From Ruminococcus sp. (lineage in GTDB: Bacteria > Bacillota > Clostridia > Oscillospirales > Ruminococcaceae), in NCBI RefSeq assembly GCF_017464355.1, contig NZ_JAFUAG010000039.1, forward strand, positions 1 to 57,786: DNA of 57,786 bases, read 5' to 3'. Positions within the stretch are counted from its first letter, which is position 1. Each line of letters starts with the position of its first letter. Below are positions 19,492 through 57,786 of this stretch, piece after piece. Both the position numbers and the translations under genes were made by a program. A model generated the notes under the pieces. That model did no database searches. It had not been told where the DNA came from and worked only from the letters and a program-made list of their open reading frames with translations.

Positions 19492-19494
19492 AAA

Positions 19495-19804
19495 ACAGCT
19501 GCCTCCTCAGGGCGGTGCGCAAAAAAATAGTCGTGCATTTTATTGGGGGAAACCTTTCTGAAGAAAGGTTATCCCCCAAGCCCCTTTCCAAAGACTTTTT
19601 ATATTGGGTGGGCGAAAAGTCACTGCACTTGCGAAGTATAGCAAGTGTCAAACATTCGTTGTTCTATCATAGAACAGTGACCTTTCGCCCACCCAAAATA
19701 GAAGTTTTAGGAAGGGGGTCTGGGGGATAACCCTTTTTCAAAAGGGTTTCCCCCAGTAGAACACATGACTATCTTTATGCGCACCGCCCTGAGGGGGCAG
19801 CTGT
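19495..19804. terminator. Bidirectional terminator hairpin split by a cloverleaf repeat (locus 1)
   Basis: ACAGCTGCCTCCTCAGG and following bases (19495-19521) pair with 19778-19804, 27 bp with a single mismatch. A-rich sequence precedes and T-rich sequence follows, and the genes on either side converge. Instead of a short loop, the hairpin holds the 225-base repeat at 19539-19762. Confidence 0.8.
19539..19762 (+). repeat. Cloverleaf-shaped repeat element, copy 1
   Basis: Layout: side hairpin GGGGGAAACCTTTC...GGTTATCCCCC, long central stem (CCCCTTTCCAAAGAC with its complement, tip near 19650), then the same side hairpin inverted, GGGGGATAACCC...GGGTTTCCCCC. Same orientation as copy 3, opposite to copies 2 and 4. 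The central tip differs from the other copies. No reading frame worth calling. Confidence 0.85.
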
Positions 19805-22164
19805 TATTTTACTACTTTTATTTCCGTATCTCCTGTTATTGTTACTGTCAGTGAGTTTCCTGTTATGCTTTCTGTTTTGCCGTTTGAGGTCATCTCCCAT
19901 TCGGTATCATCGTTTTCGGCGGTCAGGGTCAGCTCGCTGTCTCTGAAATACTTGCCTTCAAACTTTTTACCTATCTCCAGCCCGTTGAGGCTGATGCCCT
20001 CCCCCGATATTTCCACGGTATAGGGGGAATGGAGAAAATATCTTACCTGAATATCATCTGAGAGCCTCTGCATTCTGCCGTTAAAGAAAGAATGCATTCT
20101 GTTCTGCATGGGAACGGAAGAAGACTTTACGTTGCGCAGGGTGGGAAAACGCAGGTAATAGGCGGGCATTTCCGCCAGGTAGACCTCATACTTCTCCTCA
20201 AACTCAGCAAGCCTTTCCTTTGTGTAGACAATGTTGCCCATATCCGCCAGCCGTGTTATCAGCCTTTGCCTGAACTCCTTGTTCTTCATCAGCTGGAGTA
20301 TCATTTTGGTCAGGGGCTTGTCGCTTTTGCTGTTTAAGTATTCAAAGTAGTATATATCGGCCTTTTCCATATGGTAGTGGCAGGCACAGGACTCCGTATC
20401 GAACAGGAAGAACCTCCACTTGCCGTCACCGTAGGTGCTGCCGTCATTGCTGCGCCAGCAGCCGTAGTTGTTCTGGGGCCAGTCATCGTTGAAGATGTAC
20501 ATCTCCATGGCGCAGTAGTCGATGAAGTTGTCTATATCCAGCAGATCACATACATGGCTGTAGTTTTCATCATCGCTCATATCTCTGCCGATGATGAATT
20601 CCCGCAAGTTATCAAAGCTCAGCTCGTCCACCGCCAGGCCTTTGTCCAGCTCTCCGTTTTTGTAAATGGCCACGCTGTCCTCGCTGACACCGTAGTGTCT
20701 GGCAAAATACTCCTGCGAAAGATCCTCCTGCAGGGTGTAAAGCCCCCAGTATTCGCCGTCAATGAACAGCACACAGGGTCTGCCCGTCTGGGTAGGGGGC
20801 GCAAGGCAGCCTGCCATGTCCTGCATGAGTATATCCTTGTATTTCAGGAAGTTTGAGTCGTTGCCGCCGTTGCGCAGCACAAGGGTGGAAAAGCTGTCAT
20901 TTTCCTGACCCTCAGCAGTTTCCAGCCCCTCCCAGAAGCAATAGTCGAAGCTGTCCTTGCCGTAGTCGCTCCTGGCATAAAACCTGAAGGATTTCTGGTA
21001 ATCCGCCCGCGACCAGCCGCCCTGTATCCTCATGCCTGCGTCCTGGCTAAGCTTAAGGCTGCCGTCGCTCTCAAAGAACTGCAGGGTGCATTCTCTCTCC
21101 CATTCCCTCCCCCGCTGATTGTAGTTTGCGGGGATAGAACCGTTGTACAGGTGGTCGGGGTGATCGGCGTAATATTCCTCATAGACCTTGCCCCGTGTAT
21201 AAATGCCTGTTTCGCTGTCATACAAAGCATCGGGGTCTGTCACCAGCGAGATGACAGGCAGGCCGTTATGGTCAGCGGGGGCAAGTCCAACAAAGTAGGT
21301 GGCAGTGCTTACACTGCCCCAGTCCCCCTCACTGTTTTTTGCGCAGGCACGCACAACGGTGCCTTTATCCACGTTATTGTCCTCTGGGGCGAAGACCTTG
21401 CCCTCATGATATTCCAGCTGTATCTCCATGGGGTCTTTGGCGGAAAGCACATTGGGCTGACCCGCCCTGTCCTCCACCTTAACGGGAGAAACATATTTTC
21501 TTGCTGTAAGGGAAGTTCTGGGGTCGGTGCCGTCAAGGGTGTACATTATCATCTCGGAGTTGAGGGCTGTCATCTCCAGCTCAAAGCCCTTTTCACGGAA
21601 GCCGCTTTCCTCCGAAAATACCACCTGCGAAGCATAGAAAGCCTCCGCATTGGCAGCACAGGGGGTCGGGGTGGTTATGTAGGCGCCTTCCTCGCCTGCA
21701 CAGACAGTGCTGCCCTTTGAGGTAGGCTCGGTGGTAATGCTGTCAATGACCTTGCTGCCGCATTTCAGGGTAAGGGTGCAGCTTTCGCCCTTGGGTATCT
21801 TGAGATCCACCTGAGGTATGCTTTTGTCCTCAAAGCCGTCCTTGGTGCAGTAGACCAGTGCGTAGCCCCCCGCAGGTATCTCTCCCCCGCTGACAGCGCA
21901 TTCCGCCTTTTCCTCACGGCAGAGGGTATACCTGTTAAGCTTAACAGGCTTGCTGTTGGGGTTGTATAGCTCCACCCAGTCACAGAGGTCCCCGCTGCTG
22001 TCCCGCAGGGCAGCCTGTTCATCGCTGCCATCGTTTACAGCACATACCTCGCTTATAACAAGAACGGGGGGCTTCAACAGGACGATACAGCCTGCGGCCG
22101 CCAGCAGCAGAACTATCACTGCCGCAGCCAGCAGCCTTGCGCGAAGCCGCAGTTTATCCCCCAT
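19804..22164 (-). CDS. CotH-kinase family surface protein with lamin-tail domain
   Basis: A 786-residue exported protein. A signal or anchor helix spans residues 10-33. A lamin-tail-like domain follows (about 35-165, VISEVCAVN and WVELYNPN), then a chitobiase-C-like segment with MYTLDGTDPRTS (about 205-290). The CotH kinase-like domain covers about 300-650 (GGWSRADYQKSFRFYAR, LRNGGNDSN, GLYTLQEDLSQEYFARHYG, FFLFDTESC). A short beta-rich domain closes the protein. CotH domains are known in spore coats and in cellulosomal proteins of Ruminococcus; no dockerin repeat is visible here. It has its own promoter at 22200-22228. Catalytic activity is not proven by sequence alone. Confidence 0.9.
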   Translation of the reverse strand: MGDKLRLRARLLAAAVIVLLLAAAGCIVLLKPPVLVISEVCAVNDGSDEQAALRDSSGDLCDWVELYNPNSKPVKLNRYTLCREEKAECAVSGGEIPAGGYALVYCTKDGFEDKSIPQVDLKIPKGESCTLTLKCGSKVIDSITTEPTSKGSTVCAGEEGAYITTPTPCAANAEAFYASQVVFSEESGFREKGFELEMTALNSEMIMYTLDGTDPRTSLTARKYVSPVKVEDRAGQPNVLSAKDPMEIQLEYHEGKVFAPEDNNVDKGTVVRACAKNSEGDWGSVSTATYFVGLAPADHNGLPVISLVTDPDALYDSETGIYTRGKVYEEYYADHPDHLYNGSIPANYNQRGREWERECTLQFFESDGSLKLSQDAGMRIQGGWSRADYQKSFRFYARSDYGKDSFDYCFWEGLETAEGQENDSFSTLVLRNGGNDSNFLKYKDILMQDMAGCLAPPTQTGRPCVLFIDGEYWGLYTLQEDLSQEYFARHYGVSEDSVAIYKNGELDKGLAVDELSFDNLREFIIGRDMSDDENYSHVCDLLDIDNFIDYCAMEMYIFNDDWPQNNYGCWRSNDGSTYGDGKWRFFLFDTESCACHYHMEKADIYYFEYLNSKSDKPLTKMILQLMKNKEFRQRLITRLADMGNIVYTKERLAEFEEKYEVYLAEMPAYYLRFPTLRNVKSSSVPMQNRMHSFFNGRMQRLSDDIQVRYFLHSPYTVEISGEGISLNGLEIGKKFEGKYFRDSELTLTAENDDTEWEMTSNGKTESITGNSLTVTITGDTEIKVVK

Positions 22165-22199
22165 TAAAGCACCCCCCTGTTTTTTGCAGATACAAGCTT

Positions 22200-22228
22200 A
22201 TTATACTATTTTCCCCATAAAATGTCAA
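22200..22228 (-). promoter_or_regulatory. Sigma-A type promoter of the CotH-kinase gene
   Basis: Minus strand TTGACA (22228-22223) and TATAAT (22205-22200), spacer 17: consensus in both boxes. Confidence 0.88.
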
Positions 22229-22256
22229 TCAGGAATATTCCCGTATTTATCGTATG

Positions 22257-23018
22257 CTAAGCCCACTCCACCACATCGCCCGAAGCCTTAGCTATGCGCA
22301 CCTCAGCCCCGGGGAACTTTTCTTTCAGCGCATTTTCCATGTATTTACAGAAAATATTCTCGGTATAATAATGCCCCGCATCAAAGACCGTCAGGCCTGC
22401 GTTGTAGGCATCTATGAAGATATCATGCTTCACATCGCCCGTGATGAATCCGTCGCAGCCCTTGGCAAGCACCTCCCCCAGAAAGCTGCCGCCGCTGCCT
22501 GAGCATACTGCTATCCTCTTGAGGGGCTTGTCCTTTGAGGCCTTGTCGTATCTCACCACGGGGCAGCCCAGCTTATCCTTGCAGAGCTTTGCAAGCTCCG
22601 CCGCTGTTATGCCCCCATGCCCGCAGATACAGCCCATTTCCGCCCCATGCTCAACGGCTATGGGCTCCCGGGGAATAAGTCCCAGGGTATCGCACAGCAC
22701 CTTGTTCATCACGGTGCTGTCTAAATTTGTATGGGCAGAAAGCACCCCCACTCCCCCGCGTACCAGTGTACCTGCAACGCTTTCGGGGTCAAGCTGCTTT
22801 ATCCCCCTGAAAATAACAGGGTGGTGGGTAACTACCAGCTGAAAGCCCTCTGCTGCGGCCTCCCTTGCCACATCGATGGTGCAGTCCAGCGAGAGCAGTA
22901 TCCTGTCTGCGGGCATGGACATATTGCCCACGCAAAGCCCGCTGTTGTCGTAGCCCTCCTGCAGGCAGAAAGGCGCCAGCTCTTCCACAAAGTCATAGAT
23001 ATCCTTTACTGTATACAT
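22257..23018 (-). CDS. Nif3-like dinuclear metal-centre protein
   Basis: A 253-residue member of the Nif3/YbgI/YqfO family, annotated in databases as GTP cyclohydrolase 1 type 2 homologue; the true substrate is unsettled. Metal-ligand motifs are visible: THHPVIF, SAHTNLDS and, near the C-terminus, DAGHYYTE. It is the short form without the PII-like insertion. ATG 23018 follows GAGGTG. The upstream coiled-coil gene has its own terminator (23031-23064), so co-transcription is uncertain. The usual partner genes (trmK, rpoD) are not next to it. Confidence 0.9.
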   Translation of the reverse strand: MYTVKDIYDFVEELAPFCLQEGYDNSGLCVGNMSMPADRILLSLDCTIDVAREAAAEGFQLVVTHHPVIFRGIKQLDPESVAGTLVRGGVGVLSAHTNLDSTVMNKVLCDTLGLIPREPIAVEHGAEMGCICGHGGITAAELAKLCKDKLGCPVVRYDKASKDKPLKRIAVCSGSGGSFLGEVLAKGCDGFITGDVKHDIFIDAYNAGLTVFDAGHYYTENIFCKYMENALKEKFPGAEVRIAKASGDVVEWA

Positions 23019-23030
23019 AAAAACACCTCA

Positions 23031-23064
23031 CAAAAAAACGGGCGAAACGCTCACCGTCCCGCCC
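23031..23064 (-). terminator. Rho-independent terminator after the coiled-coil membrane gene
   Basis: On the minus strand GGGCG (23064-23060) pairs with CGCCC (23044-23040) around a partly paired interior, followed by GTTTTTTT. Confidence 0.65.
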
Positions 23065-23080
23065 ATATGATATACTGTTA

Positions 23081-23806
23081 TTATTTACTTTTTCTGCCGA
23101 ACAGACTCTTCTTGGCCTGGGGCTTTTTGCCTATCTGCTCGGTAGGGTCGCCGAAACGCTCCTTGTTCTTCTCGATGTCCATGGGTCCGCCTGTGTGTAC
23201 GCTGGCTGTCATGATACCCGTCATCTGCTGCATAAGCAGGCTCTGCTCGAATATCTCCACCGCTTCCTCACAGGTCTCGGCTTCGCCGCTTACCAGGAAC
23301 TCCTTTATCTTGCCGATATTGTTCATGTAGTCCATATCCAGCTCCATGAAGTCTATCTTCTTCCTCAGCGCCGAAAGATAATCGTCACGCTGCTTTTCCA
23401 GCTGCTTTATCCTGCCGTCAAGAAGCTCTATCTGCTCGGTTATGCCCTCGTTGACTTCCTTCTGGTGGTCCTTTACCTCGGTAAGCTTCTGGTTGTAATA
23501 CTTGTTCGCCATGGAAAAGCCGCCTATCATGACCAGCACAAAGCCCACCCCGGGTACTATGAACTGCAGCCCCGAATGGAATGCCGCCAGCAGCAGCAGC
23601 GCGAATATCAGCGCACCTGCAAGCACATATACCATGGTCTTGTTGCGCTTGCCCTTGAAATTGAATTCCTTCTCCGCCTCAGAAACATCTCTTATGTAAA
23701 TTTTCAGATACTCCTTGTTCTCCTTGCTGACTTCAACGCCGTCAGCAAACTCGAAGTATCTGTTTATATAACATTCAGCCAGATCCATCTTTTCAAGTTC
23801 TGTCAT
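23081..23806 (-). CDS. Membrane protein with central coiled coil, unknown function
   Basis: A 241-residue protein not assigned to a family. The acidic N-terminal 50 residues are followed by two adjacent membrane helices (about 57-78 and 81-100). A coiled coil (about 105-150, EQIELLDGRIKQLEKQ) leads to a helical region and a basic tail ending in KKSLFGRKSK. ATG 23806 follows AGAGGGTG. It has its own promoter and terminator, so it is a single-gene unit. It may scaffold or sense at the membrane; no enzymatic motif is seen. Confidence 0.7.
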   Translation of the reverse strand: MTELEKMDLAECYINRYFEFADGVEVSKENKEYLKIYIRDVSEAEKEFNFKGKRNKTMVYVLAGALIFALLLLAAFHSGLQFIVPGVGFVLVMIGGFSMANKYYNQKLTEVKDHQKEVNEGITEQIELLDGRIKQLEKQRDDYLSALRKKIDFMELDMDYMNNIGKIKEFLVSGEAETCEEAVEIFEQSLLMQQMTGIMTASVHTGGPMDIEKNKERFGDPTEQIGKKPQAKKSLFGRKSK

Positions 23807-23925
23807 AAATAATTCACCCTCTGCTGTTTTACCTGTATCTTACAGCAACCGATGTCATAGGCTCATCATCGTCAGCTGTAGCATATACTTTTATAAATTA
23901 ATAAAGCTAAAGTGTACATAGGTAA

Positions 23926-23954
23926 AGTATATCATACGTTCACGAATTTGTCAA
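23926..23954 (-). promoter_or_regulatory. Sigma-A type promoter of the coiled-coil membrane gene
   Basis: Minus strand TTGACA (23954-23949) and TATACT (23931-23926), spacer 17. The rest of 23807-24321 is AT-rich and holds the divergent exporter promoter and leader. Confidence 0.75.
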
Positions 23955-24119
23955 TATTTTTATTAATATTTTATTCAAGAAAATTTGTAAATATAATTAT
24001 TTTATTGTGTAGTTGATATATTTTTCCATTTTTATACTATTATTTTCCAAATACCTTGTTAAGTTCTTAATTAATCCTGTGGTATAGAGTAATTTTTTCT
24101 TAATTTCACACGACTTCCA

Positions 24120-24148
24120 TTGACAGATACTTTTTTTTGTACTATAAT
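24120..24148 (+). promoter_or_regulatory. Consensus promoter of the exporter operon
   Basis: TTGACA at 24120-24125 and TATAAT at 24143-24148, spacer 17: perfect consensus, so strong basal transcription is likely unless repressed. Confidence 0.88.
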
Positions 24149-24154
24149 ATAAGT

Positions 24155-24321
24155 ACAGATATATATTTTGTGTAGACAAAAAGTTCGGACAGCAGACATA
24201 TAAATACAAAGAGATCGTCTGTAAAATACATATATTTTTGGGGTGTGTCATGCGCCCTGTTTTTATGTATCCGTGCAGACTTTTTGTTTATTGGTGAATT
24301 TTTTTAGGAGGAACATTTTTT
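24155..24321 (+). promoter_or_regulatory. Long structured leader of the exporter operon
   Basis: About 165 bases between the promoter and ATG 24322. ACAAAAAGT at 24176-24184 pairs with ACTTTTTGT at 24279-24287, enclosing a smaller CAGAC (24193-24197) / GTCTG (24217-24221) hairpin and a second near 24225-24270. It could be an attenuator or ligand-sensing leader; no known class recognised. Confidence 0.4.
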
Positions 24322-26007
24322 ATGTCAAAAGCAAGCTCAATAGGCAAAGCGGTCGCCACCCTTGTGGTGCTGGGCGGCGTAGGCTTCGGCGGCTGGTATC
24401 TTTATAAGAACTACGGCAGCGACGAAGCAACGGGTTCAGACAAGGTCTATATCCAGAAGGTGGCAAACATCAACACCGTCACCAGTGCCGATCTTTTCTC
24501 CAACAGCTTTTCGGGCGTTATTGTTGCCCAGAAGTCTGTTGATGTCAAGTACGACTCCACCAAGACAGTTGACGAGATACTTGTGGCAGACGGCGACAAT
24601 GTCAAGAAAGGCGACAAGCTGCTGACCTACGATACCGAGGCCATACAGATCGAGATAGATACTGCCAAGCTGGAGGTCGAAAGGCTGGAAAACGACATTG
24701 CCACCAACGAGACCCAGATAAAGCAGTATGAGGAAGAAAAGAAAAAGGCCAGCGCCGATGCGGCCGTATCCTACACCAACCAGATACTCCAGCTGCAGAG
24801 CGACAATGCCAGGAGCCAGTATGATATCAAAGCTAAGAACGTTGAGATAAACAAGCTGGAAACTTCCCTGAACAACGCTTATGTGGTAGCGCCCATAGAC
24901 GGCACTGTCAAGGACGTAAAGGACCCCTCGTCCTCCGTTTCCATGTCGGATATGTTCGGTGCAAATGAAGACCCCGATGTCATCATGAAGCTGACAGCTG
25001 AGGGCGATATGCGCGTAAAGGGCGTATTCAATGAGCAGAACAGCGGCTCTATAATGCAGGGGGCTGAGGTCACTCTCAGGAGCAGGGTAAATGATACTGA
25101 GGTAAAGGGCACAGTTTCCGAGATAGACACCTCACCTCAGCAGGAAAACAACAATATCTACGGAATGTACAGCGACAGCGACGAGATGTCCACATCTTCA
25201 AAGTACGCTTTCTATGTGGAGCCCGAGAGCCTGGACGGCTTCATGCTGGGTCAGCACATACTCATCGATACCGACAGCGGCAGCGATATAGAAAAGACAG
25301 GCATATGGCTGTACACCGACTTTATCCTTAAGGAAGGCGACAAGTCCTATGTATGGGCAAAGGATGAAGACAAGGATCTCATCGAGAAGCGCTATGTAAA
25401 GATAGGCCGGAAGGACGATGATTACGGCGACTGCGAGATAATCGACGGGCTTTCCACCGATGACTACATAGCTTACCCCGCTGATTATATCAAGGAGGGT
25501 CTTGCGACCACCACAAACTTCTCCGACAAGGATATCCCCGAGAATGAGCTTGGTGATGAAATGGGCGGCGAGATGTACGGAGAAGAGATGGGCGGCGGCG
25601 AAGCTGAAATGGGCGGCATGGACGACGGCGACTTTGTCATGAACGATGACGGAAGCTTCTCCTTTACCGACCCTGACGGCAACTATATTGAGTCCGACGC
25701 TGAGGGCAACTCTACTATAACCTCCCCTGACGGCGGCATTATTGAAATGGACGCTGAGGGCAACTTTATCCGCGGCAGCATAGATGAAAACACAGGCGAA
25801 TACATATTCGACTACGAGGGCGGCGAAGCACCTGCTGAGGGTGAGGCTCCAGCCGAGGGCGAAGAACCCGCTGAGGGTGAAGCACCTGCCGCAGACGATA
25901 CCCCCGACCTGACCTATGAGGATCTCTACGGTATATCCGAGGAAGAATTCAATGCCATGAGCCCCCAGGAGCTTGACAGCTTCCTGAAGGAACACTACAA
26001 GAACTAA
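24322..26007 (+). CDS. HlyD/MacA-like membrane fusion protein with acidic tail
   Basis: A 561-residue extracytoplasmic adaptor. An N-terminal membrane helix spans about 7-27, then a first lipoyl half (about 55-105, KSVDVKYDSTKTVDEILVADGDNVKKGDKLLTYD), a coiled-coil hairpin (about 108-190), second lipoyl half and beta-barrel (about 190-400). The rest, about 160 residues, is unlike MacA: Met/Gly/Glu-rich, then repeated D-x-E-G-N / D-P-D-G turns, then EAPAEGE repeats. AGGAGGAAC precedes ATG 24322. It is first in a four-gene operon with an ATPase, a second adaptor and a permease. The tail may bind cations or wall polymers. Confidence 0.85.
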   Translation: MSKASSIGKAVATLVVLGGVGFGGWYLYKNYGSDEATGSDKVYIQKVANINTVTSADLFSNSFSGVIVAQKSVDVKYDSTKTVDEILVADGDNVKKGDKLLTYDTEAIQIEIDTAKLEVERLENDIATNETQIKQYEEEKKKASADAAVSYTNQILQLQSDNARSQYDIKAKNVEINKLETSLNNAYVVAPIDGTVKDVKDPSSSVSMSDMFGANEDPDVIMKLTAEGDMRVKGVFNEQNSGSIMQGAEVTLRSRVNDTEVKGTVSEIDTSPQQENNNIYGMYSDSDEMSTSSKYAFYVEPESLDGFMLGQHILIDTDSGSDIEKTGIWLYTDFILKEGDKSYVWAKDEDKDLIEKRYVKIGRKDDDYGDCEIIDGLSTDDYIAYPADYIKEGLATTTNFSDKDIPENELGDEMGGEMYGEEMGGGEAEMGGMDDGDFVMNDDGSFSFTDPDGNYIESDAEGNSTITSPDGGIIEMDAEGNFIRGSIDENTGEYIFDYEGGEAPAEGEAPAEGEEPAEGEAPAADDTPDLTYEDLYGISEEEFNAMSPQELDSFLKEHYKN

Positions 26008-26021
26008 GAGGTGCTGGCGGT

Positions 26022-28564: not shown

Positions 28565-28575
28565 GGAGGGTCGGT

Positions 28576-29862: not shown

Positions 29863-29870
29863 ATTCAATT

Positions 29871-30182
29871 CCCCCGTACATACGGCGGGATAAAAAAACA
29901 AGCTTGTATGTTCTACTGGGGGAAACCCTTTTGAAAAAGGGTTATCCCCCAGACCCCCTTCCTAAAACTTTTTACGTTTTGGGGCGAAAGGGTGCCATTC
30001 TACAGTAGACCATGATTTACGGACATAAGCCGCACTACTATAGAACAGCACCCTTTCGCCCCAAAATATAAAAGTCTTTGGAAAGGGGTTCGGGGGATAA
30101 CCTTTCTTCAGAAAGGTTTCCCCCGATAAAATATATAAGCTTGTTTTTGTGTCCCCGCCGTATGTACGGGGGCTTTTTTTTA
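29871..30182. terminator. Bidirectional terminator hairpin split by a cloverleaf repeat (locus 2)
   Basis: CCCCCGTACATACGGCGGG at 29871-29889 pairs perfectly with 30154-30172, followed by C and eight T. The genes on either side converge. Between the arms, AACAAGCTTG-type bases continue the pairing before the repeat at 29911-30133 fills the loop. Confidence 0.82.
29911..30133 (-). repeat. Cloverleaf-shaped repeat element, copy 2
   Basis: Inverted relative to copies 1 and 3: side hairpin GGGGGAAACCCTTTTGAAAAAGGGTTATCCCCC-like first, central stem (CCCCCTTCCTAAAAC... GGGGCGAAAGGGTGC), then side hairpin of the GGTTTCCCCCGATAAAAT end. The core is nearly identical to copy 3. Confidence 0.88.
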
Positions 30183-31469
30183 TTCAGCTGCGGGAACGTA
30201 TGAGTCGTTGAACATCAGCAGTTCCCAATAATTATCGGTACCGTCGGAGAAGTTTGCGAGTGAGAGGTACTTCATATCGGGGTCGAGGATAACTGCGCGG
30301 TGATCCTTGGAGCTTATCCAGGTATCGAAGACGTCCTTAGCGGACTCGCCGCCCTTAGCGATATTCTCGCCGCAGTGCCACCAGCTCAGGCCTGCCTTGC
30401 CCAGTGCGGAGGTATAGGGGCTCTCCTTTTCATCGGGGCGGGTGTGGCTGAAATTCTGAGCCAGCTCCTCAGCCCTTACAGCGCTTGCCTTATCCAGCTC
30501 ATCGAGGCCGTAAACAGGCTCCATATCGTACTGCACTCTCAGTTCGTTGACATAACCAAGCATCTCGGCAGTAAGGTCGCTTATGCCGTCATTCTGTGTG
30601 GAAACAGCGCCGTAATCCACAGGGGGGCGCATAGGTTCAAGGCTTGCCTTGTCAGCATCGACAGCTTCCATATCGGGGTATTTCTCGCTGTAGCCGTAGG
30701 GCACCAGCTCCTGTCCGTTGATGTAAAGCACATTGCTCCAGGAAGTTATCAGCAGGTCGCCGTTGAGTTTATAAACGTTGTAGAAAAATCCGTCGTTAAC
30801 GCCCTCTGAATAGAAGCCGTTGTCATCGGCGGTTATCTTTAATTGAGAGCCCGAGTTTTCTTTCAGCTCGCACTCATTCACATATTCACCCTTGGAATTT
30901 TTCAGTCTGTACTTGCCCTTTGCAGTGCATTCAAGCACATACTCATCATTCAGCCTGTAGGCTGAGAAATTAGCAGCTGTGTACTCAACGGGGCTGTTGT
31001 CGATGAACAGCTTGCCGTCCTTAAGGGTTATCATGTGTTTGTTGTAAACAAAGCCTGCGGCGGGCTGCTTATCTCTCAGTATGGAAAGCTTGCCGTCCTC
31101 CTCCATGAAGACTATCTCAGCACCGCTGTCGTCCTGCAGGCTAATGCCGCTGGCGCTGGAGCCGTTCTCCATAAAAGAGTAGCTGCCCGAGGGTTCAGCG
31201 AACACCACATTTCCGTCAAAATCAATGGCACCGCAGCTGAGTTCGGGTATCTCTGCCGCAAGAATGATTTTTTCGCGGTCAGACTTTTCTTCCTTATCCT
31301 CGCTGCTTTCAGCCACAGAACTTGCAGCGGCCTTGCTGGAAGAACTATCCTTCTTCACATCGACATTCTTGCCGTCCTTATTCCGCGAAACTGCCACGCC
31401 GACACCAAGTGCCAGCACCACAGCCAGACAAACTATATTTTTTGCATTTGCTATCTTTTTTAAATTCAT
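30180..31469 (-). CDS. Exported CAP (SCP/PR1) domain protein
   Basis: A 429-residue protein. It has a signal/anchor helix at about 8-28, a Ser/Glu/Lys linker, a beta-rich central region of unknown type (about 75-285) and a C-terminal CAP domain (about 300-425). CAP features seen: MLGYVNELRVQY, HTRPDE, WWHCGENIAKG, WISSKDHRAVILDPDMKYLSLA. CAP proteins are extracellular; in bacteria they are linked to spore germination or wall binding, but their activity is unclear. A consensus promoter lies at 31517-31545. It is a single-gene unit ending in the nested terminator. Confidence 0.87.
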   Translation of the reverse strand: MNLKKIANAKNIVCLAVVLALGVGVAVSRNKDGKNVDVKKDSSSSKAAASSVAESSEDKEEKSDREKIILAAEIPELSCGAIDFDGNVVFAEPSGSYSFMENGSSASGISLQDDSGAEIVFMEEDGKLSILRDKQPAAGFVYNKHMITLKDGKLFIDNSPVEYTAANFSAYRLNDEYVLECTAKGKYRLKNSKGEYVNECELKENSGSQLKITADDNGFYSEGVNDGFFYNVYKLNGDLLITSWSNVLYINGQELVPYGYSEKYPDMEAVDADKASLEPMRPPVDYGAVSTQNDGISDLTAEMLGYVNELRVQYDMEPVYGLDELDKASAVRAEELAQNFSHTRPDEKESPYTSALGKAGLSWWHCGENIAKGGESAKDVFDTWISSKDHRAVILDPDMKYLSLANFSDGTDNYWELLMFNDSYVPAAE

Positions 31470-31516
31470 AACCTGTCCTTCTATCCTTATTTTTACACAA
31501 TATCCGACAACAATAT

Positions 31517-31545
31517 ATTATACTCCACTGTTGCCTTTTTGTCAA
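31517..31545 (-). promoter_or_regulatory. Consensus promoter of the CAP-domain gene
   Basis: Minus strand TTGACA (31545-31540) and TATAAT (31522-31517), spacer 17, wedged directly after the parB stop codon. Confidence 0.88.
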
Positions 31546-31550
31546 TACCG

Positions 31551-32462
31551 CTATTTAGCCAAAATTTCGGCCAGCTTTTTCAGAAGTTCTTCCGCATCTG
31601 TTTCTTTTGGAACTTTCAGTTCTACCCTTACTCCCCCGCTGCTGTCGGACTTTGCCTTTACCTTGACATCTGAGTTGGCATTCACCGCCATTTCAAACTC
31701 TTTCAGGAAAGGTCTTTCCTTTTTCACCGAGCGCTTGCGGATAGCCTGCCTGTCGGTCTCAAGCTGTTTTTCTGCCAGACGTTCCGCATCTTTCAGGGCA
31801 TCTTCAAGCTGCCTTACCGAAAGCCCCTCCTGCTGAACTTTTTTTGCAAATTCCGCCTGCCTGTTTTTTTCAAGACCCGAAAGCACCTTGGCATGGCCGA
31901 AGCTTATCTCGCCCTTGTCCACCATGTCACGCACGTTCTCATCAAGCTCCAGCAGACGCAGCGAGTTTGCCACCGCCGAACGTGACTTTCCTACCGCCTG
32001 AGCCAGCTGCTGCTGGGTCATGTCGTAGCTGTCCATGAGATTTTTGTAAGCCAGGGCTTCCTCCACAGGCGACAGATCCTGCCGCTGGATATTCTCGATA
32101 AGAGCCATCTGCATGGTCTGCCTGTCATCAAGCTCCTTTATGTACACGGGAACTTCGCTCAAACCCGCCAGCCTTGAAGCCCGCCACCTGCGCTCACCTG
32201 CCACTATCTGGTAGCCGCCGTTATCCAGCGGACGGGCAAGTATGGGCTGCAGCACGCCGTTTTCCTTTATACTGTCAGCCAGTTCAGCAAGCTTTTCGTC
32301 ATCGAACTTGCCTCTCGGCTGCTCCTTGTTGGGCTCCAGCAGCGTTATCTTGACCATGGTCACGCTGTCCGCACTTTCCTGCTGAGGTGCAGTTTCTGCC
32401 GGTCTGGTGTTTTCTGCAAACAGCATATCAAGTCCCGAACCCATTCTGTTTTTCTTTGCCAT
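31551..32462 (-). CDS. parB: Chromosome partitioning protein ParB (Spo0J)
   Basis: CTP-dependent DNA clamp that loads at parS and organises the origin for segregation. It has 303 residues. The N-terminal CTPase domain is present with QPRGKFD, ENGVLQPILAR and the GERRWRAS box (about 90-97), then ALIENIQRQDLSPVEEA. The central HTH region is SRSAVANSLRLLEL. A Lys/Glu-rich linker leads to the C-terminal dimer domain. It lies 43 bases downstream of parA with a parS between them. The AAGGAG ribosome site supports ATG 32462. Confidence 0.95.
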   Translation of the reverse strand: MAKKNRMGSGLDMLFAENTRPAETAPQQESADSVTMVKITLLEPNKEQPRGKFDDEKLAELADSIKENGVLQPILARPLDNGGYQIVAGERRWRASRLAGLSEVPVYIKELDDRQTMQMALIENIQRQDLSPVEEALAYKNLMDSYDMTQQQLAQAVGKSRSAVANSLRLLELDENVRDMVDKGEISFGHAKVLSGLEKNRQAEFAKKVQQEGLSVRQLEDALKDAERLAEKQLETDRQAIRKRSVKKERPFLKEFEMAVNANSDVKVKAKSDSSGGVRVELKVPKETDAEELLKKLAEILAK

Positions 32463-32489
32463 TTATCATTCTCCTTGTTGACTTTACAG

Positions 32490-32505
32490 TGTTCCACGTG
32501 GAACA
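32490..32505. promoter_or_regulatory. parS: parS site 1
   Basis: TGTTCCACGTGGAACA, a perfect 16-base palindrome and a known clostridial form of the parS consensus. It abuts the parA stop codon and precedes parB. Confidence 0.93.
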
Positions 32506-33285
32506 TTACTTGTTTTTACGCTTTTTATCACGCTTTATCATTTCCTTGGCAAGCTCCTCGTAGGCCTTTGAGCCCTTTGCCTTTTTATCATAGTAAATGG
32601 CAGGCTGGCCAAAGCTGGGCGCCTCGGAAAGTGCCACATTTCTCGGTATTGTGGTGTTGAAAACTTCTTTCGGAAAGTGCTTCTTCACCTCGTTCATTAT
32701 CTGTCCTGTTATCTTGTACCTGTCAACGCACATGGTAAACAGTATGCCCTCGATGATGAGCCCCTTGTTCCAGGTCTGCTTTACACGGTCAATGGTGTTA
32801 TGCAGTTCCACCAGGCCCTCCAGCGAAAGAAATTCACACTGCAGCGGTATCAGCACCGAGTCCGCTGCCACCAACGCATTAATGGTCAGCATATCAAGGG
32901 TCGGGGGACAATCTATAAAAATATGATCGTAGAATTGTTTCGCCTCACTGAGTTTGTCTTTCAGCTGGTCGGCTCTGTTGTCCATGGTCATCAGCTGTAC
33001 TGCCGCACCTGCCAGGTCCTGGGTAGTGGGCACCACCGAAACTCCCCTGAAAGCCGTAGCACACACGGCTTCAAACAACGCGCAGTCCCCCATAAGCACA
33101 TCATACACTGTATTGCGTATGCTGCGTTTCTGTATACCATAGCTTGTGGTCGTATTGCCCTGAGGGTCAAAATCTATAATAAGTACCTTTTCGCCCCTGG
33201 CACCAAAAACCGCTGCCAGATTGCATACCGTAGTTGATTTTCCCACGCCGCCTTTCTGATTTGAAACGGCAATTATCTTACCCAT
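32506..33285 (-). CDS. parA: Chromosome partitioning ATPase ParA (Soj)
   Basis: MinD/ParA-type ATPase that with ParB separates sister origins and, in Bacillus relatives, controls DnaA. It has 259 residues. The deviant Walker A SNQKGGVGKSTT is at about residues 7-18, including the signature lysine of KGG; DFDPQGNTTT (Walker A' region) and the Walker B-like FIDCPPTLDMLT are present. ATG 33285 follows GGAGATA. It runs divergently from the Noc-like gene across a spacer holding two parS sites, and 20 kb from dnaA. Confidence 0.95.
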   Translation of the reverse strand: MGKIIAVSNQKGGVGKSTTVCNLAAVFGARGEKVLIIDFDPQGNTTTSYGIQKRSIRNTVYDVLMGDCALFEAVCATAFRGVSVVPTTQDLAGAAVQLMTMDNRADQLKDKLSEAKQFYDHIFIDCPPTLDMLTINALVAADSVLIPLQCEFLSLEGLVELHNTIDRVKQTWNKGLIIEGILFTMCVDRYKITGQIMNEVKKHFPKEVFNTTIPRNVALSEAPSFGQPAIYYDKKAKGSKAYEELAKEMIKRDKKRKNK

Positions 33286-33376
33286 ATTATCTCCTCATTT
33301 CGTTTCAGTTGATGAACTCTTCCTTTCTATTATACTACATTTTTTCTCATTTGAAAAGGGGTTTTGAAAATTTCTT

Positions 33377-33392
33377 TGTTCCACGTGGAACA
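33377..33392. promoter_or_regulatory. parS: parS site 2
   Basis: Exact TGTTCCACGTGGAACA in the divergent parA / noc-like spacer, 38 bases from site 3. Confidence 0.93.
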
Positions 33393-33414
33393 TTTTTCTG
33401 TAGAGCATTTTCTG

Positions 33415-33430
33415 TGTTCCACGTGGAACA
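33415..33430. promoter_or_regulatory. parS: parS site 3
   Basis: Exact TGTTCCACGTGGAACA. The spacing of 38 bases start to start from site 2 is close to whole helical turns, so both face a similar side of the DNA. Confidence 0.93.
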
Positions 33431-33586
33431 TTATATTGCGACAAAAACTCTGCGTTATAAAAAGAATTCTGTCAGCTTAAAAAATATACCCCCGAAGCGT
33501 GATGTAATTTCACGATGATCTCAAAGCATATCCCCATGGATTTTTCCGCAGGATTGTGCTATGCTTGAATAAAAAGGAGGTCCAAT

Positions 33587-34444
33587 ATGAACAAGCTGAC
33601 AGATTTTATCTCAAAAACTTTTATAGACATTCAGCCCGCGGCAGAGGAAGAACTCCGTGAACTGGGCAGAGTAGTTGACATCGGGGTAGGGGACTTAGCC
33701 CCGAACCCCGACCAGCCCCGCAGGCATTTTGCAGCAGACGAGCTTACTGCTTTAGCAAAAAGCATTTCCGCCAACGGGGTAATCCAGCCCCTGACTATCC
33801 GTCGTGCAGAAAACGGTTTTGAACTTGTTTCGGGAGAACGGCGCCTGCGAGCCGCAAAGCTGGCAGGCCTGAAAACCGTGCCCTGCATTATCATTAAAGC
33901 GGACAGAGGGCGCTCGGCGGTACTGGCACTTCTGGAAAATATCCAGCGCAGCGACCTGAACTGCTTTGAAGAAGCCGCCGCTATCAGTGCACTGCTGGAC
34001 AGCGGGAAAGTCACCCGCGAGGAGGCCGCCATGAGGCTGGGCATGGCGCAGTCTACCATAGCCAACAAGCTGCGGCTCTTAAAACTCACCCGTGATGAAC
34101 AGAAGCTTATCTGCGAACACGACCTCACCGAGCGCCACGCCCGCACCCTCCTGCGGATAGCCGACGAAGACCTCCGACGGGAAGTCCTCGCGAAAGCCAT
34201 TGAAGGCGGCTGGACGGTGGACGCTCTTGAAAAGTACATAACCAAACTCGAAAGGGAAGCCGCCAGAAGATCCAGCTACGAAAAACGCTCCGTTATGCTC
34301 AAAGACGTGCGGCTGTTCTTCAACTCGGTCAATAAAGCCCTGGAAGTCATGAAAATGGCAGGCGTCGATGCCACAGCAAAACGTGTTGACAAAGAAGACG
34401 TCATCGAATACACCATAACCATCAAAAACAACAATGCCACATAA
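33587..34444 (+). CDS. noc: Noc-like ParB-family nucleoid occlusion protein
   Basis: A 285-residue ParB paralogue. It keeps the CTPase motifs (QPRRHFA, NGVIQPLTIRR, GERRLRAAK, ALLENIQRSDL). Its HTH region reads AQSTIANKLRLLKL followed by LTERHARTLL, which matches Bacillus Noc more closely than Spo0J; Noc blocks division over the nucleoid. The N-terminal 12 residues could be the membrane-targeting amphipathic helix of Noc (MNKLTDFISKTF). AAGGAGG precedes ATG 33587. In many relatives noc lies near rsmG; here it is divergent from parA. A second Spo0J or a distinct ParB is the alternative. Confidence 0.8.
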   Translation: MNKLTDFISKTFIDIQPAAEEELRELGRVVDIGVGDLAPNPDQPRRHFAADELTALAKSISANGVIQPLTIRRAENGFELVSGERRLRAAKLAGLKTVPCIIIKADRGRSAVLALLENIQRSDLNCFEEAAAISALLDSGKVTREEAAMRLGMAQSTIANKLRLLKLTRDEQKLICEHDLTERHARTLLRIADEDLRREVLAKAIEGGWTVDALEKYITKLEREAARRSSYEKRSVMLKDVRLFFNSVNKALEVMKMAGVDATAKRVDKEDVIEYTITIKNNNAT

Positions 34445-34761
34445 GAAAAGCGGTCTTTCTGTAAGGGTGGTTCTCATAAAGAAGCATATATATTTTATCG
34501 GGGGAAACCTTTCTGAAGAAAGGTTATCCCCCGAACCCCTTTCCAAAGACTTTTATATTTTGGGGCGAAAGGGTGCTGTTCTATAGTAGTGCGGCTTATG
34601 TCCGCAAATCATGGTCTACTGTAGAATGGCACCCTTTCGCCCCAAAACGTAAAAAGTTTTAGGAAGGGGGTCTGGGGGATAACCCTTTTTCAAAAGGGTT
34701 TCCCCCAGTAGAATACATACGTTTTTTATGAGAATCGCCTTATAGGAAGACCGCTTTTCTT
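34443..34761. terminator. Terminator hairpin split by a cloverleaf repeat (locus 3)
   Basis: AAGAAAAGCGGTCTTTCTG at 34443 and following bases to about 34481 pair imperfectly with 34727-34761. The arm begins at the noc-like stop and ends at the stop of the convergent AraC-type gene. The repeat at 34491-34716 sits in the loop. Confidence 0.75.
34491..34716 (+). repeat. Cloverleaf-shaped repeat element, copy 3
   Basis: Best example for drawing the fold: side hairpin 34499-34533 (CGGGGG with CCCCCG, AACCTTTC with GAAAGGTT), central stem from about 34535 to 34671 with a small TGCGG/CCGCA tip, side hairpin 34672-34708 (CTGGGGG with CCCCCAG). TATTTTAT and its partner GTAGAATAC close the base. Confidence 0.88.
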
Positions 34762-35530
34762 ATACGATAGTGTTGTTCTTGCGCCACTCGCTGGGGGAGA
34801 CCCCTGCGGCTTGTTTGAACTGTCTTGAGAAATGCACTGCGTTCTTGTAGCCGCAGGTGAAGGCTACTTCTTCCACCGTTCGGTCGGTGTAGGCTAGATA
34901 ATGCTTAGCCGACTCTATGCGGCTGTTTATGACGTCCGCGTTGCAGGTGACACCGAAGGCCTTCTTGTAAAGCAAATGCAGGTAGGGTTCGCTGACACTT
35001 ATCTGCTGGGCCATTTTTTCAACGCTCCAGTCCTCCGAGGGCTGGGCATAGATCTTCCTGCGCAGATCAAGCAGCTCACGGTAATGGGCTATGCCCGATT
35101 CCTCCTGCTTGCCGTTTTCAGAAAACACCTCTGACAGCAGCGCTTTGATGAGAAACCCTGCGGTCTGCAGGTTGTTGCGCCTGTAGTAGCAATCGGCGAT
35201 GAGCTGGAAATATCTTGCCACATCTATGGACTCTCCGATATATATCGGCCTGTCGAACTTTATATCTATCCCCGAGGTTATGTCCTCGCTGCACTCAAAC
35301 TGAATCCAGTCGTTTATATACTCGCTCTCGCAGGCTCTGTAAAGCTGGGGAGAATTTTTGTTGTATATCAGAAAAGTATTCGGCTCGATGTTGTAAGTCT
35401 CACCCTCGATTTCAAAGACCGCTTTGGTCTTGACAAACAGCATGAGATAGCCCTCATACCCCCTGGGGCGGTTCAGCACGAAGCTTCCGTCATGCTTGCA
35501 GCTGCAGCCCATTCTGTCAATATAGAACAA
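34760..35530 (-). CDS. AraC-family transcriptional regulator
   Basis: A 256-residue regulator. The N-terminal cupin-like sensing region (about 1-140, YLMLFVKTKAVFEIEGE) is followed by a C-terminal double HTH of the AraC type (about 155-252, QISVSEPYLHLLYKKAFG and the ending VEEVAFTCGYKNAVHFSRQFKQAAGVSPSEWR). AraC proteins with this build sense sugars or oligosaccharides. The start is TTG 35530, 6 bases after GGAGGT. No target operon adjoins it; the alpha-galactosidase gene is a possible distant target (speculative). Its stop overlaps the outer terminator arm. Confidence 0.92.
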   Translation of the reverse strand: MFYIDRMGCSCKHDGSFVLNRPRGYEGYLMLFVKTKAVFEIEGETYNIEPNTFLIYNKNSPQLYRACESEYINDWIQFECSEDITSGIDIKFDRPIYIGESIDVARYFQLIADCYYRRNNLQTAGFLIKALLSEVFSENGKQEESGIAHYRELLDLRRKIYAQPSEDWSVEKMAQQISVSEPYLHLLYKKAFGVTCNADVINSRIESAKHYLAYTDRTVEEVAFTCGYKNAVHFSRQFKQAAGVSPSEWRKNNTIV

Positions 35531-35551
35531 TGTCTTACCTCCATTCTATAT

Positions 35552-35579
35552 GAAAATCGGAGCATTTTCATGCTCCGAT
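35552..35579 (-). terminator. Rho-independent terminator after the zinc-ribbon gene
   Basis: ATCGGAGCA at 35556-35564 pairs with TGCTCCGAT at 35571-35579, loop of 6. On the minus strand TTTT follows the stem. Only 22 bases separate it from the AraC-type start. Confidence 0.8.
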
Positions 35580-35584
35580 AAATA

Positions 35585-36514
35585 TCAGTCTTCTGTAAAA
35601 TCATCAGCAACTGTAATAACAGCTGCGCTCTTCTTTGTATCCTTGTCTCCGAAGATGTTCTTCCTGAACACCACAAAAACGTCAACCAGTATAACAATTA
35701 TGATAGCGACGATAAGTATTATCGGCAGGATATTGCCGGGTTTCTTCCCGGGGGTGACACCATTCTGGGGCTGATTGCCCTGGGGCATATTCTGCTGACC
35801 CATGTTGTTCATGGGCATATTGTTCTGGGGATAGGGGTTGTTCTGAGGCATATTAGGCTGCTGATAGCCGCCGTTGCCCTGGGGTATAACAGCCTGGGGC
35901 TGGGCAAAATTGTTCTGCGGTGCCTGAGGCTGGGGGTTCTGCGCAAACTGGTTCTGCTGAGGTGCGAACTGGTTGTTCACAGGCTGTGCAGGCTGTGCAG
36001 GCTGCTGATACTGATTTTGCTGCCGGAAATTATTCTGCATCTGCGGTGCCTGGGGCTGTCCGTTCATCTGGGGACGGCCATTCATCTGGTCGATAACAGG
36101 CTGCTGAGGTGCAGGCTGAGGTTTAGCTATCTGCACAGGCTTAGGCTGAGGCTTGGGCTGTGCGGGCTGCTGACCGGGCATGAAAATGCTGTCCATAGTG
36201 GGCATATCAGCCTTGTTGGGCTGCTCTTCCGTCAGACCCAGCATCTCATCAGTTATAACAGGTATCTCTACCTCGTCCATGGTGGGGTTTTTCAGAAGCT
36301 CCTGCTGTCTTGCCAGCTCCTCTGCCGCAGTGGTATCCTCGGGTGCGCTCACGGGTGTTCCGCAGATGTTGCACACCTTTGTATTTTCGAGCAGGGTGTT
36401 TCCGCATACGGGACATATCTTCTGCTTTATTATAACGGGCAGCTTGCAGCCGCAGGTGTTGCAGAACTTCTGACCCTCCTCATAGGGAAAATTACATTCG
36501 GGACAATTAGGCAT
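35585..36514 (-). CDS. Double zinc-ribbon membrane protein with Gln/Asn/Pro-rich linker
   Basis: A 309-residue protein of unknown function. Two N-terminal zinc ribbons (CPEC and CNTC, about 4-21; CPVC and CNIC, about 34-53) face the cytoplasm. An acidic segment follows, then about 130 residues almost wholly of Gln, Asn, Pro, Ala and Met (about 115-252), one membrane helix (about 258-280) and a short charged outer tail. The low-complexity part looks prion-like. Zinc-ribbon plus one helix is a common clostridial design, possibly a sensor or membrane assembly factor. The start and its hairpin-spaced ribosome site are described at 36515-36555. Confidence 0.8.
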   Translation of the reverse strand: MPNCPECNFPYEEGQKFCNTCGCKLPVIIKQKICPVCGNTLLENTKVCNICGTPVSAPEDTTAAEELARQQELLKNPTMDEVEIPVITDEMLGLTEEQPNKADMPTMDSIFMPGQQPAQPKPQPKPVQIAKPQPAPQQPVIDQMNGRPQMNGQPQAPQMQNNFRQQNQYQQPAQPAQPVNNQFAPQQNQFAQNPQPQAPQNNFAQPQAVIPQGNGGYQQPNMPQNNPYPQNNMPMNNMGQQNMPQGNQPQNGVTPGKKPGNILPIILIVAIIIVILVDVFVVFRKNIFGDKDTKKSAAVITVADDFTED

Positions 36515-36555
36515 ATAGTCTTTCGCCGTTCTACAGCGGCGAAATTCCCTCCTTT
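36515..36555 (-). promoter_or_regulatory. Shine-Dalgarno separated from start codon by a hairpin
   Basis: The strong AAAGGAGG (36555-36548) is 33 bases before ATG 36514 and there is no closer start in any frame I could accept. Between them CGGCGAAA/TTTCGCCG (36544-36537 with 36528-36521) forms an 8-bp hairpin with an 8-base loop. Excising its 24 bases leaves 9 bases, the ideal spacing. Confidence 0.6.
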
Positions 36556-36617
36556 CGGTCTACTTTATTATATATAAACATATGTTTTTATACTTTCAAC
36601 CATTTATATACAATAAT

Positions 36618-36646
36618 ATAATACCGCATTTTTCCTGCTTTGTCAA
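36618..36646 (-). promoter_or_regulatory. Sigma-A type promoter of the zinc-ribbon gene
   Basis: Minus strand TTGACA (36646-36641) and TATTAT (36623-36618), spacer 17. The leader is about 95 bases. Confidence 0.8.
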
Positions 36647-36696
36647 GCACATTTTTAACATTTTCTATAAAAGAAGATACAAAATTATTAACTGCC

Positions 36697-37287
36697 TCAG
36701 CTGAATATTTTCCACATCATCAGCACTATCATAACTATAGCTGCTGCCAGCACCACACCGGCCGTTACAATGCCTACCCTCAGCAGACGTTTTTCATTGC
36801 CCTTGTTTATTTTGCCTTTCAATTGAAGAATGTTGATAACTCCCCCGCACATCACCGCAAAGTCCGTTATGGCGATAAGCTCTGCGGTGCCGTCCTTTAT
36901 CCTGCCCACAAATGCAGGGCTGTCCCGCAGCGCCGTTATCACAAACAGCACCAGAAATCCCGCCGCCGCTATAACTATGTCCACCAGCAGGGAAGTCGTT
37001 ATCCTATTTTTTTCCTCTTCCGTGTACTCCGCTACCTTTACCAGCGTTTCCTTTAACTCTGTGTCCATGCTCTCACTTTTCCTTTCTCCGTCTATCAGCT
37101 GACGTATGTCTACATCGTAATGATCTGCAAGCTCTATCAGCAGACTTATGTCAGGCATATTGTTCCCGTTCTCCCAGCGGCTCACCGTCCTCGCCGTTAC
37201 CCCGAACTTCTCTGCCAGCTGCTCCTGGGTCATGCCCCTCTCTTTCCTCAGCTCTCTCAGAAATCTCCCTGTCTTTACCTGATCCAT
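36697..37287 (-). CDS. XRE-family regulator with membrane helices
   Basis: A 196-residue protein. An N-terminal Cro/C1-type HTH (about 5-60, LRKERGMTQEQLAEKFGVTARTVSRWENG) is followed by a linker and three hydrophobic segments (about 100-120, 135-152, 170-192). This is a membrane-tethered repressor or activator type common in Firmicutes, often responding to envelope stress. ATG 37287 is chosen because AAAGGAGG lies 7 bases upstream; the in-frame ATG 37305 itself overlaps that site. It lies downstream of gyrA but the terminator at 37397-37700 separates them. Confidence 0.85.
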   Translation of the reverse strand: MDQVKTGRFLRELRKERGMTQEQLAEKFGVTARTVSRWENGNNMPDISLLIELADHYDVDIRQLIDGERKSESMDTELKETLVKVAEYTEEEKNRITTSLLVDIVIAAAGFLVLFVITALRDSPAFVGRIKDGTAELIAITDFAVMCGGVINILQLKGKINKGNEKRLLRVGIVTAGVVLAAAIVMIVLMMWKIFS

Positions 37288-37396
37288 CCCGTGACCTCCT
37301 TTCATATGTTATCATACTATTCCCCGTCAGAAAAATCCACGACATAAAGTGAGAAAATGCCCGATCTCCCTGACCCGACACCAAATGTCCGCTAAA

Positions 37397-37700
37397 CAAA
37401 CCACCGACAAGGGCGGAGTTCTCCAAAAGTTCGTGTATTTTACTGGGGGAGACCCTTTTGAAAAAGGGTCTTCCCCCAGACCCCCTCCCTAAAACTTTTT
37501 ACGTTTTGGGGCGAAAGGGTGCTGTACTATAGTAGTACGGTGAATATCCGCCACATACTGTTCTATCATAGAATAGCACCCTTTCGCCCCAAAATATAAA
37601 AGTCTTTGGAAAGGGGTTCGGGGGATAACCTTTCTTCAGAAAGGTTTCCCCCGATAAAATACATAAGCTTTCGGTGAACTCCACCCCTGTCGGTGGGGTT
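37397..37700 (-). terminator. gyrA terminator hairpin split by a cloverleaf repeat (locus 4)
   Basis: AAACCACCGACAAGGGCGG and on to about 37427 pair imperfectly with 37673-37700. On the minus strand the arm is followed by GGTTTGTTT, so it terminates gyrA transcription. Both flanking genes are on the minus strand, unlike the other loci. The rest of 37288-37396 shows nothing further. Confidence 0.72.
37435..37662 (-). repeat. Cloverleaf-shaped repeat element, copy 4
   Basis: Same orientation as copy 2. The left side hairpin reads GGGGGAGACCC with GGGTCTTCCCCC: bases changed on both arms relative to the other copies (AAACCC/GGGTTAT), so pairing is kept. The central tip also differs. This compensatory change supports the fold. 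Confidence 0.86.
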
Positions 37701-57576: not shown

Positions 57577-57786
57577 TTTATTAAGAGTTTGATCCTGGCT
57601 CAGGACGAACGCTGGCGGCACGCTTAACACATGCAAGTCGAACGTGCGAAAGAGTGCTTGCACTCTCGAGCTAGTGGCGGACGGGTGAGTAACACGTGAG
57701 CAATCTGCCTTTCGGTGGGGGATACCAATTGGAAACGATTGTTAATACCCCATAACATAGATTTACCGCATGATAAATCTATCAAA
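57577..57786 (+). rRNA. rrs: 16S ribosomal RNA, 5' part (runs off the window)
   Basis: AGAGTTTGATCCTGGCTCAG at 57584-57603 equals E. coli positions 8-27, so the gene starts at about 57577. GACGAACGCTGGCGGC, ACATGCAAGTCGAACG and GGCGGACGGGTGAGTAACAC follow in order. Variable region V1 (GCGAAAGAGTGCTTGCACTC) is of Ruminococcus type. Only about the first 210 bases are included. Confidence 0.97.

Follow-up and report, generated by a model that had tools for sequence, protein, structure and literature searches.

Palindromic and gene-bearing transposable elements of Ruminococcus strongly prefer the TA of terminator loops

Four copies of a palindromic element

The window, which is the whole stretch of 57,786 nucleotides analysed here from contig NZ_JAFUAG010000039.1 of Ruminococcus sp. 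(assembly GCF_017464355.1), contains four copies of one palindromic element of 277-282 bp. By a mechanical list of open reading frames (ORFs), three of the four loci are located between convergent gene ends and the remaining one lies downstream of one gene. A preliminary description of the window had reported these four loci and a core that they share, and both are borne out by the sequence and by identities of 79-99%: relative to the copy at 34500, the copies at 29906 and 37434 (both on the other strand) are 99% and 88% identical, and the copy at 19545 is 79% identical. Each copy is a near-perfect palindrome, a long stem with two side hairpins of the GGGGGAAACCTTTC..CCCCC type, and the DNA fold of 29870-30182 reaches -110 kcal/mol, against -37.7 (standard deviation 4.1) for 100 shuffles (z -17.8). 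Only chance reading frames fit inside the copies according to the ORF list, to which no Pfam scan was added. Rfam at gathering thresholds reports only 16S rRNA in the window, and thus no group II intron or other described RNA family. The element is flanked by TA on both sides at the sites 29871 and 34443, and is not so flanked at the other two.

Element ends and paired flanks

The source genome is assembled as 3.48 Mb in 49 contigs, and its 77 matches to the element merge into 40 places with long, short or partial copies, 7 of which are cut by contig ends. The short forms that were read (e.g. C17:10265 and C28:30563) have one GGGGG..CCCCC hairpin between the same ends. When the ends of all 40 places are aligned, conserved sequence is seen to reach out to GGGYGGTNCTCATAAAGAAGCTTATG, past the core of about 225 bases first described; that the core is one family stands, and its true length is that given above. 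The ends form an inverted repeat of approximately 20 bp, with a consensus that is roughly WGGGYRGTNCTYATANAGAAG. The locus-specific arms of 19-40 bases that had been reported are accordingly of two parts, in which the inner one belongs to the element as its inverted-repeat end (GGGYGGTNCTCATAAAGAAG) and only the outer 10-15 bp on each side are unique to the locus, pairing to form a terminator stem.

Pairing of the flanks outside the conserved part was scored at 30 of the 40 places, the other 10 being contig-cut or partial. True pairs score 32.8 on average, compared with 16.7 for 870 mismatched pairings, and the maximum in 2000 random re-pairings of the flanks is 21.0. The true partner outscores all 58 mismatched partners at 22/30 places and is equalled or outscored by 1 to 10 of the 58 at another seven. 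The one remaining place lacks pairing.

TA junctions in terminator loops

We compared the junctions of 55 elements from five Ruminococcus genomes, designated G000 (19 elements), G012 (13), G009 (9), G022 (8) and G003 (6), which were picked within the retrieved stretches solely on their end pattern and the pairing of their arms, with the flanks not looked at. This stricter search replaced a loose one for ends (8868 ends, 4213 pairs), the product of which was mostly chance. The terminal inverted repeats are present throughout, as an end consensus shared by the 55 copies. The base adjoining the element is A at 93 of the 110 ends and the base before that is T at 89, and there is no such consensus at further positions. 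TA is present on both sides of 35 of the 55 elements, including 30 of the 36 outside G000 (31 of 36 if a one-base tolerance is allowed; the control position gives 4 of 110 single ends).

When the two flanks are joined with one TA, the TA is in the apical loop of a hairpin in 53 of the 55 elements (a loop of 3-8 nt in 52 of them and of 12 nt in one), and the mean minimum free energy is -19.5, compared with -8.5 (standard deviation 3.9) for 2970 mismatched pairs. A run of at least four T residues follows on at least one side in 51/55. The background was taken from 6000 of the 6496 intergenic TA sites in 0.8 Mb of genome G007, using a crude ORF mask; 2.6% of these are apical in hairpins at or below -14, as against 46 of the 55 insertions. 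At G009:C43:13188-13530 (L312) two elements are present in tandem within one terminator, in the arrangement GCGGAGCA-TA-el1-TA-el2-TA-TGCTCCGC, and share the TA between them. That TA is duplicated, rather than being part of the element tips, is supported by the loop geometry and by an empty site that has just one TA (C22:274410, described below). The preliminary description had favoured recognition of hairpin structure over recognition of sequence. Given the TA at most junctions, duplex DNA with a TA-centred palindrome could just as well be the target.

Empty sites in a relative

G012 and G007 are approximately 86% identical over the 4.4 kb compared, and 1.19 Mb of G007, roughly half of the genome, was searched for 20 of the G012 sites. 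The listed G007 matches do not include the full-length form of the G012 subfamily and extend over no more than the query's hairpin part. Nine of the 20 sites were located in G007, none of them filled in the stretches seen (a partial match of 257 bp is uncounted), and at five of the nine the homologous terminator is intact with a short loop. At G012:C40:48612 the arrangement AAGACCTGCACG-TA-element-TA-CGTGCAGGTCTT corresponds to an empty AAGACCCACAC-TCAG-GTGTGGGTCTT in G007, and at G012:C48:3320 the arrangement GAGAGCAGCA-TA-element-TA-GGCTGCTCTC corresponds to GAGAACAGC-AATGC-GCTGCTCTC. The empty counterpart of C22:274410 has one TA in the G007 loop, that of C22:39943 has about 0.5 kb extra beside the terminator, and for C11:67243 there is an intact short-loop terminator in G007, the right half of which is missing from the G012 contig. 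Entry into the apical loop of pre-existing terminators, as first proposed for the window loci, is therefore upheld in a sister subfamily.

Window sites 2 and 3 were followed in 18 stretches from relatives, where several have short-loop terminators of unrelated sequence; the terminator sequences have turned over, so the same site is not shown empty there. The relatives' stretches for window sites 1 and 4 entered identity estimates only. We note that another repeat (TTCTTTCGTATT.TTCCCCCGCC..GGAACAATACACAACCAAATTGGGAT) occupies the equivalents of window sites 2 and 3 in G024:C32 (L112, L123).

Gene-bearing cassettes

Two 1.2-kb elements with similar ends, one and the same cassette in two genomes, are also located in terminator loops, and each carries a single S66 LD-carboxypeptidase gene without a transposase. 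Matches to the right end of the cassette occur in 21 of 247 genomes of the bacterial family and to the left end in 17 of 297, these sets overlapping. From 30 right-end loci, 30 left-end loci, L342, L370 and L299 we delimited 15 cassettes by hand (14 distinct, 0.46-1.28 kb), only where both ends are clear; loci that are contig-cut, decayed, without a clear partner end, or a duplicate view from the other end are uncounted. TA adjoins the left end in all 15 and the right end in 14, and the joined flanks form a hairpin with an apical TA in 15/15.

The cassettes are constant in anatomy and varied in content. A promoter of the form TTGACA-N17-TATAAT (at most one mismatch per hexamer) is positioned 73-74 nt from the right end in 12/15, one ORF of at least 45 aa is directed away from the right end in 14/15 (starts were assigned mechanically and some overlap the promoter), and a strong hairpin of -20 to -30 kcal/mol is present at the left end of each of the 15. 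A transposase is present in none of the 15. Pfam assignments for nine cargo proteins include two GNAT acetyltransferases, a dCTP deaminase, an S66 peptidase and a PRK/uridine-kinase-like protein; two further proteins have sub-threshold domains, PNPOx just short of the cut-off in one and carboxypeptidase-regulatory-like far short of it in the other, and the last two of the nine lack any Pfam hit. The cassette at G022:C5:2635533-2636076 has a 137-aa frame. Inverted repeats around a passenger, the lack of a transposase and a target duplication make these relatives, not the window copies, resemble mobile insertion cassettes. The elements are not the class apart that had been suggested, having MITE-like (miniature inverted-repeat transposable element) ends, TA flanks and relatives with genes. 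This is a transposable-element family that strongly prefers the TA of a terminator loop and that has both empty palindromic and gene-bearing forms.

At G000:C22:232677-251765 left and right cassette-type ends are 19 kb apart and have outer flanks with 12 bp of complementarity, an arrangement that would suit a single large element inserted in one terminator loop. In the G228:C327:6286 region (L400) a cassette is seemingly positioned within the loop of a palindromic element's GGGGAGACCCTTTT..AAAAGGGTTATTCCCC hairpin, a nested insertion. Neither cassette-end pattern is matched exactly in viral contigs. A weak partial match to the right end is present in phage record MT837163.1:1689-1739 (an unannotated faecal phage contig), and two plasmid records, both of Ruminococcus albus 7, contain cassettes that look decayed.

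Distribution and features of the window

The full-length query matches 22 of 61 genomes, which are the source genome, 20 of the 28 other genus members and, weakly, one outside the genus. Related elements are found in G027 (C18:42270, 78350 and 96200) and G004 (C90 and C27), a close pair from which no suitable empty site was obtained. The features of the four window copies are listed in Table 1. Copies 2 and 3 are 99% identical in the inner part and opposite in orientation. The window also contains a 16S rRNA gene at 57577-57786, within which the contig ends.

Table 1. Element copies and resident terminator stems in the window
Feature	Coordinates	Strand	Basis
Element copy 1, 282 bp, ends AGGGCGGTGCGC.. 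/ ..GCGCACCGCCCT, without junction TA	19509..19790		sequence; end pairing
Copy 1 terminator stem, left half (AACAGCTGCCTCCTC)	19494..19508	+	sequence; pairs with 19791-19805; flank test
Copy 1 terminator stem, right half (GAGGGGGCAGCTGTT), then ATTTT	19791..19805	+	sequence; flank test
Element copy 2, 278 bp; TA at 29881-29882 and 30161-30162	29883..30160		sequence; fold z -17.8
Copy 2 terminator stem, left half (CCCCCGTACA)	29871..29880	+	sequence; 1/58 mismatched partners as good
Copy 2 terminator stem, right half (TGTACGGGGG), then C and eight T	30163..30172	+	sequence
Element copy 3, 277 bp; TA at 34462-34463 and 34741-34742	34464..34740		sequence
Copy 3 terminator stem, left half (GCGGTCTTTCTG)	34450..34461	+	sequence; flank test
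Copy 3 terminator stem, right half (TAGGAAGACCGC), then TTTT	34743..34754	+	sequence; flank test
Element copy 4, 279 bp, without junction TA	37410..37688		sequence
Copy 4 terminator stem, left half (AACCACCGACA)	37399..37409	+	sequence; flank test
Copy 4 terminator stem, right half (GTCGGTGGGGTT)	37689..37700	+	sequence; flank test

Insertion and mobilisation

We think it probable that these are elements of the MITE and mobile-insertion-cassette kind, which duplicate TA and are served by a trans-acting enzyme that aims at TA-centred palindromes. The ends, the TA flanks, the terminator-loop position, the empty sites of the sister subfamily in a relative, and the cassette anatomy are all directly observed. 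The window units would then be non-autonomous MITE-like transposable elements with inverted-repeat ends of about 20 bp, and an enzyme presumably supplied in trans would cut palindromes at a central TA, the actual sites being the apical loops of intrinsic terminators. The TA would be duplicated, and the two halves of the terminator stem would end up flanking the element. A near-perfect palindromic element could fold and reunite the stem halves, so that insertion is probably cheap for the host; we infer both that the palindrome is recognised and, from the folding, that termination survives, the latter also having been supposed in the preliminary description. The related elements, in which similar ends enclose a single gene with a promoter of its own and a terminator-like hairpin, likewise resemble mobile insertion cassettes.

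We also entertain, more tentatively, a broader possibility in which portable promoter-gene-terminator cassettes and their empty forms, distributed family-wide, are moved by an undescribed recombinase that chooses the TA of a folded hairpin, and dock and stack in gene terminators. Such a system might have a role like that of integron cassettes while working on a different principle.

Several observations weigh against insertion of MITE-like elements at the TA of terminator loops. Only 5/19 G000 copies have TA on both sides (9/19 with the one-base tolerance), which may reflect older, decayed copies. Two of the 55 elements have no apical TA (one is accounted for by the tandem copy) and four have joined flanks weaker than -8, and 39% of the mismatched pairs reach -8 or better with an apical TA (51/55 for the real pairs). 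The per-copy control is weaker than the mean, in that 34/55 outscore all mismatched partners and 40/55 have at most one as good. C3:6648 is without pairing arms, with 37/58 mismatched partners as good. Among the nine sites located in G007, two (C22:161175 and C45:23526) retain only half a stem and two (C29:41314 and C11:47738) are not homologous. The related elements of G004 and G027 have longer fixed arms and adjoin complete terminators instead of lying in loops; not every member of the wider family is placed in loops, and targeting may differ between lineages. The DDE_3 domain of IS630/Tc1-mariner-type transposases is above cut-off in none of the 29 genus genomes, where lost, unassembled or diverged copies are possible, and a DUF4096-type domain, chosen to represent IS5/IS427-type transposases, is found in none of the 29 at E <= 0.001. 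These two domains mark usual sources of TA duplication, and with neither found the family is not filed under IS630 or IS5.

Sub-threshold IS630-type matches were seen in 3/29 genomes, and the one in the source genome was rejected, being located among genes read by eye as anti-sigma-factor regulators. As for an autonomous relative, no matching ends 1-3 kb apart are present among the pattern matches listed for G000 and G022.

A large serine recombinase with Resolvase, Recombinase and DUF4368 domains is a candidate enzyme of a different type, and its gene ends just inside the cassette right end at G000:C1:1-487 (L399) and in G295:C43 (L404, L421). If this were the mobiliser, TA would be its two-base crossover core, mimicking a TA duplication at both ends, the joined ends would be a palindromic attP, and terminators would serve as attB-like palindromes. 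We regard this as unlikely. The recombinase-cassette junction is identical in G000 and G295, genomes of different genera; such a constant hairpin junction with differing outer ends fits an element that landed in a cassette hairpin. The G295 gene has a helix-turn-helix-like neighbour (by eye) and, upstream, a second recombinase that is 39% identical, as expected of a larger integrative element, and none of the other delimited cassettes has a serine recombinase. The gene probably marks one border of an integrative element for which the cassette hairpin is the insertion site.

It is also rather improbable that insertion is at random TA sites and that selection leaves only the copies in terminator loops, the others being harmful to the host. 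Terminator loops are harmless places, and a palindromic element could keep the terminator working; yet the 97.4% of intergenic TA sites outside hairpins by the -14 criterion include many downstream of genes, with 46 of the 55 copies nevertheless in such hairpins, and the gene-bearing cassettes, which cannot re-fold a terminator, are placed in the same way in 15/15. That the arms arose after insertion, for example by copying of one flank as an inverted repeat, and are not old terminators would suit the paired variation between copies (AA/TT in place of TA/TA in the arms of C3:5466) and is very improbable given that a stem with a short loop is already present at the five homologous empty sites of G007.

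Insertion of MITE-like elements by an enzyme that sees TA-centred palindromes would raise the testable question of whether transposases perceive a palindrome as a dyad in the duplex or as an extruded hairpin. Intrinsic terminators are common, alike in shape with no shared sequence, and tolerant of insertion; if an enzyme does aim at them, they would provide safe and abundant docking sites for mobile genes in gut and rumen bacteria, and the enzyme might become a tool. The copies also break short-read assemblies, as seen at the 7 of 40 places cut by a contig end.

Relationship to known systems

Terminator-associated insertion is a property of group IIC introns, and integrons carry single-gene cassettes that can stand in tandem. 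The Ruminococcus elements differ from both in having two inverted ends with TA flanks instead of one recombination site; the window has no RNA family besides 16S rRNA, and intron-type reverse transcriptases and integron integrases were not searched for.

The RUP, Correia and Nezha elements are MITEs that duplicate TA and are mobilised by IS630/Tc1-mariner-type transposases. The palindromic elements are like them in being short, protein-free and strongly folded, with inverted-repeat ends and TA at both junctions, and unlike them in their terminator-loop placement, their gene-bearing relatives, and the absence of DDE_3 above cut-off in the 29 genus genomes. The ends of the pneumococcal RUP resemble those of IS630-Spn1 (PMC3049150). 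No description of the system reported here was found in the literature covered, including passages of PMC10969869, PMC3049150, PMC1525189 and PMC3913671, a scope that does not extend to subscription papers and preprints.

Mobile insertion cassettes such as mic-qnrD have inverted repeats around passenger genes and no transposase gene (PMC3913671). MIC231 of Bacillus cereus and mic-qnrD share with the cassettes described here the enclosed passenger genes, a short target duplication and an own promoter, whereas the Ruminococcus cassettes have many different single genes with one conserved promoter end, use the TA of terminator loops, and have no partner insertion sequence that was found.

Small pneumococcal repeats named SPRITE are located near gene 3' ends and are tied to terminators (PMC3049150). 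A SPRITE is itself terminator-like, whereas the Ruminococcus element splits a resident terminator. Use of the symmetry axis of a palindrome as the target has a parallel in ISPsy8, ISRm22 and others, which insert at that axis in repetitive extragenic palindromic (REP) sequences (PMC1525189). The REP targets are one repeated sequence, whereas the terminators occupied here differ from one another and share only their shape and a central TA.

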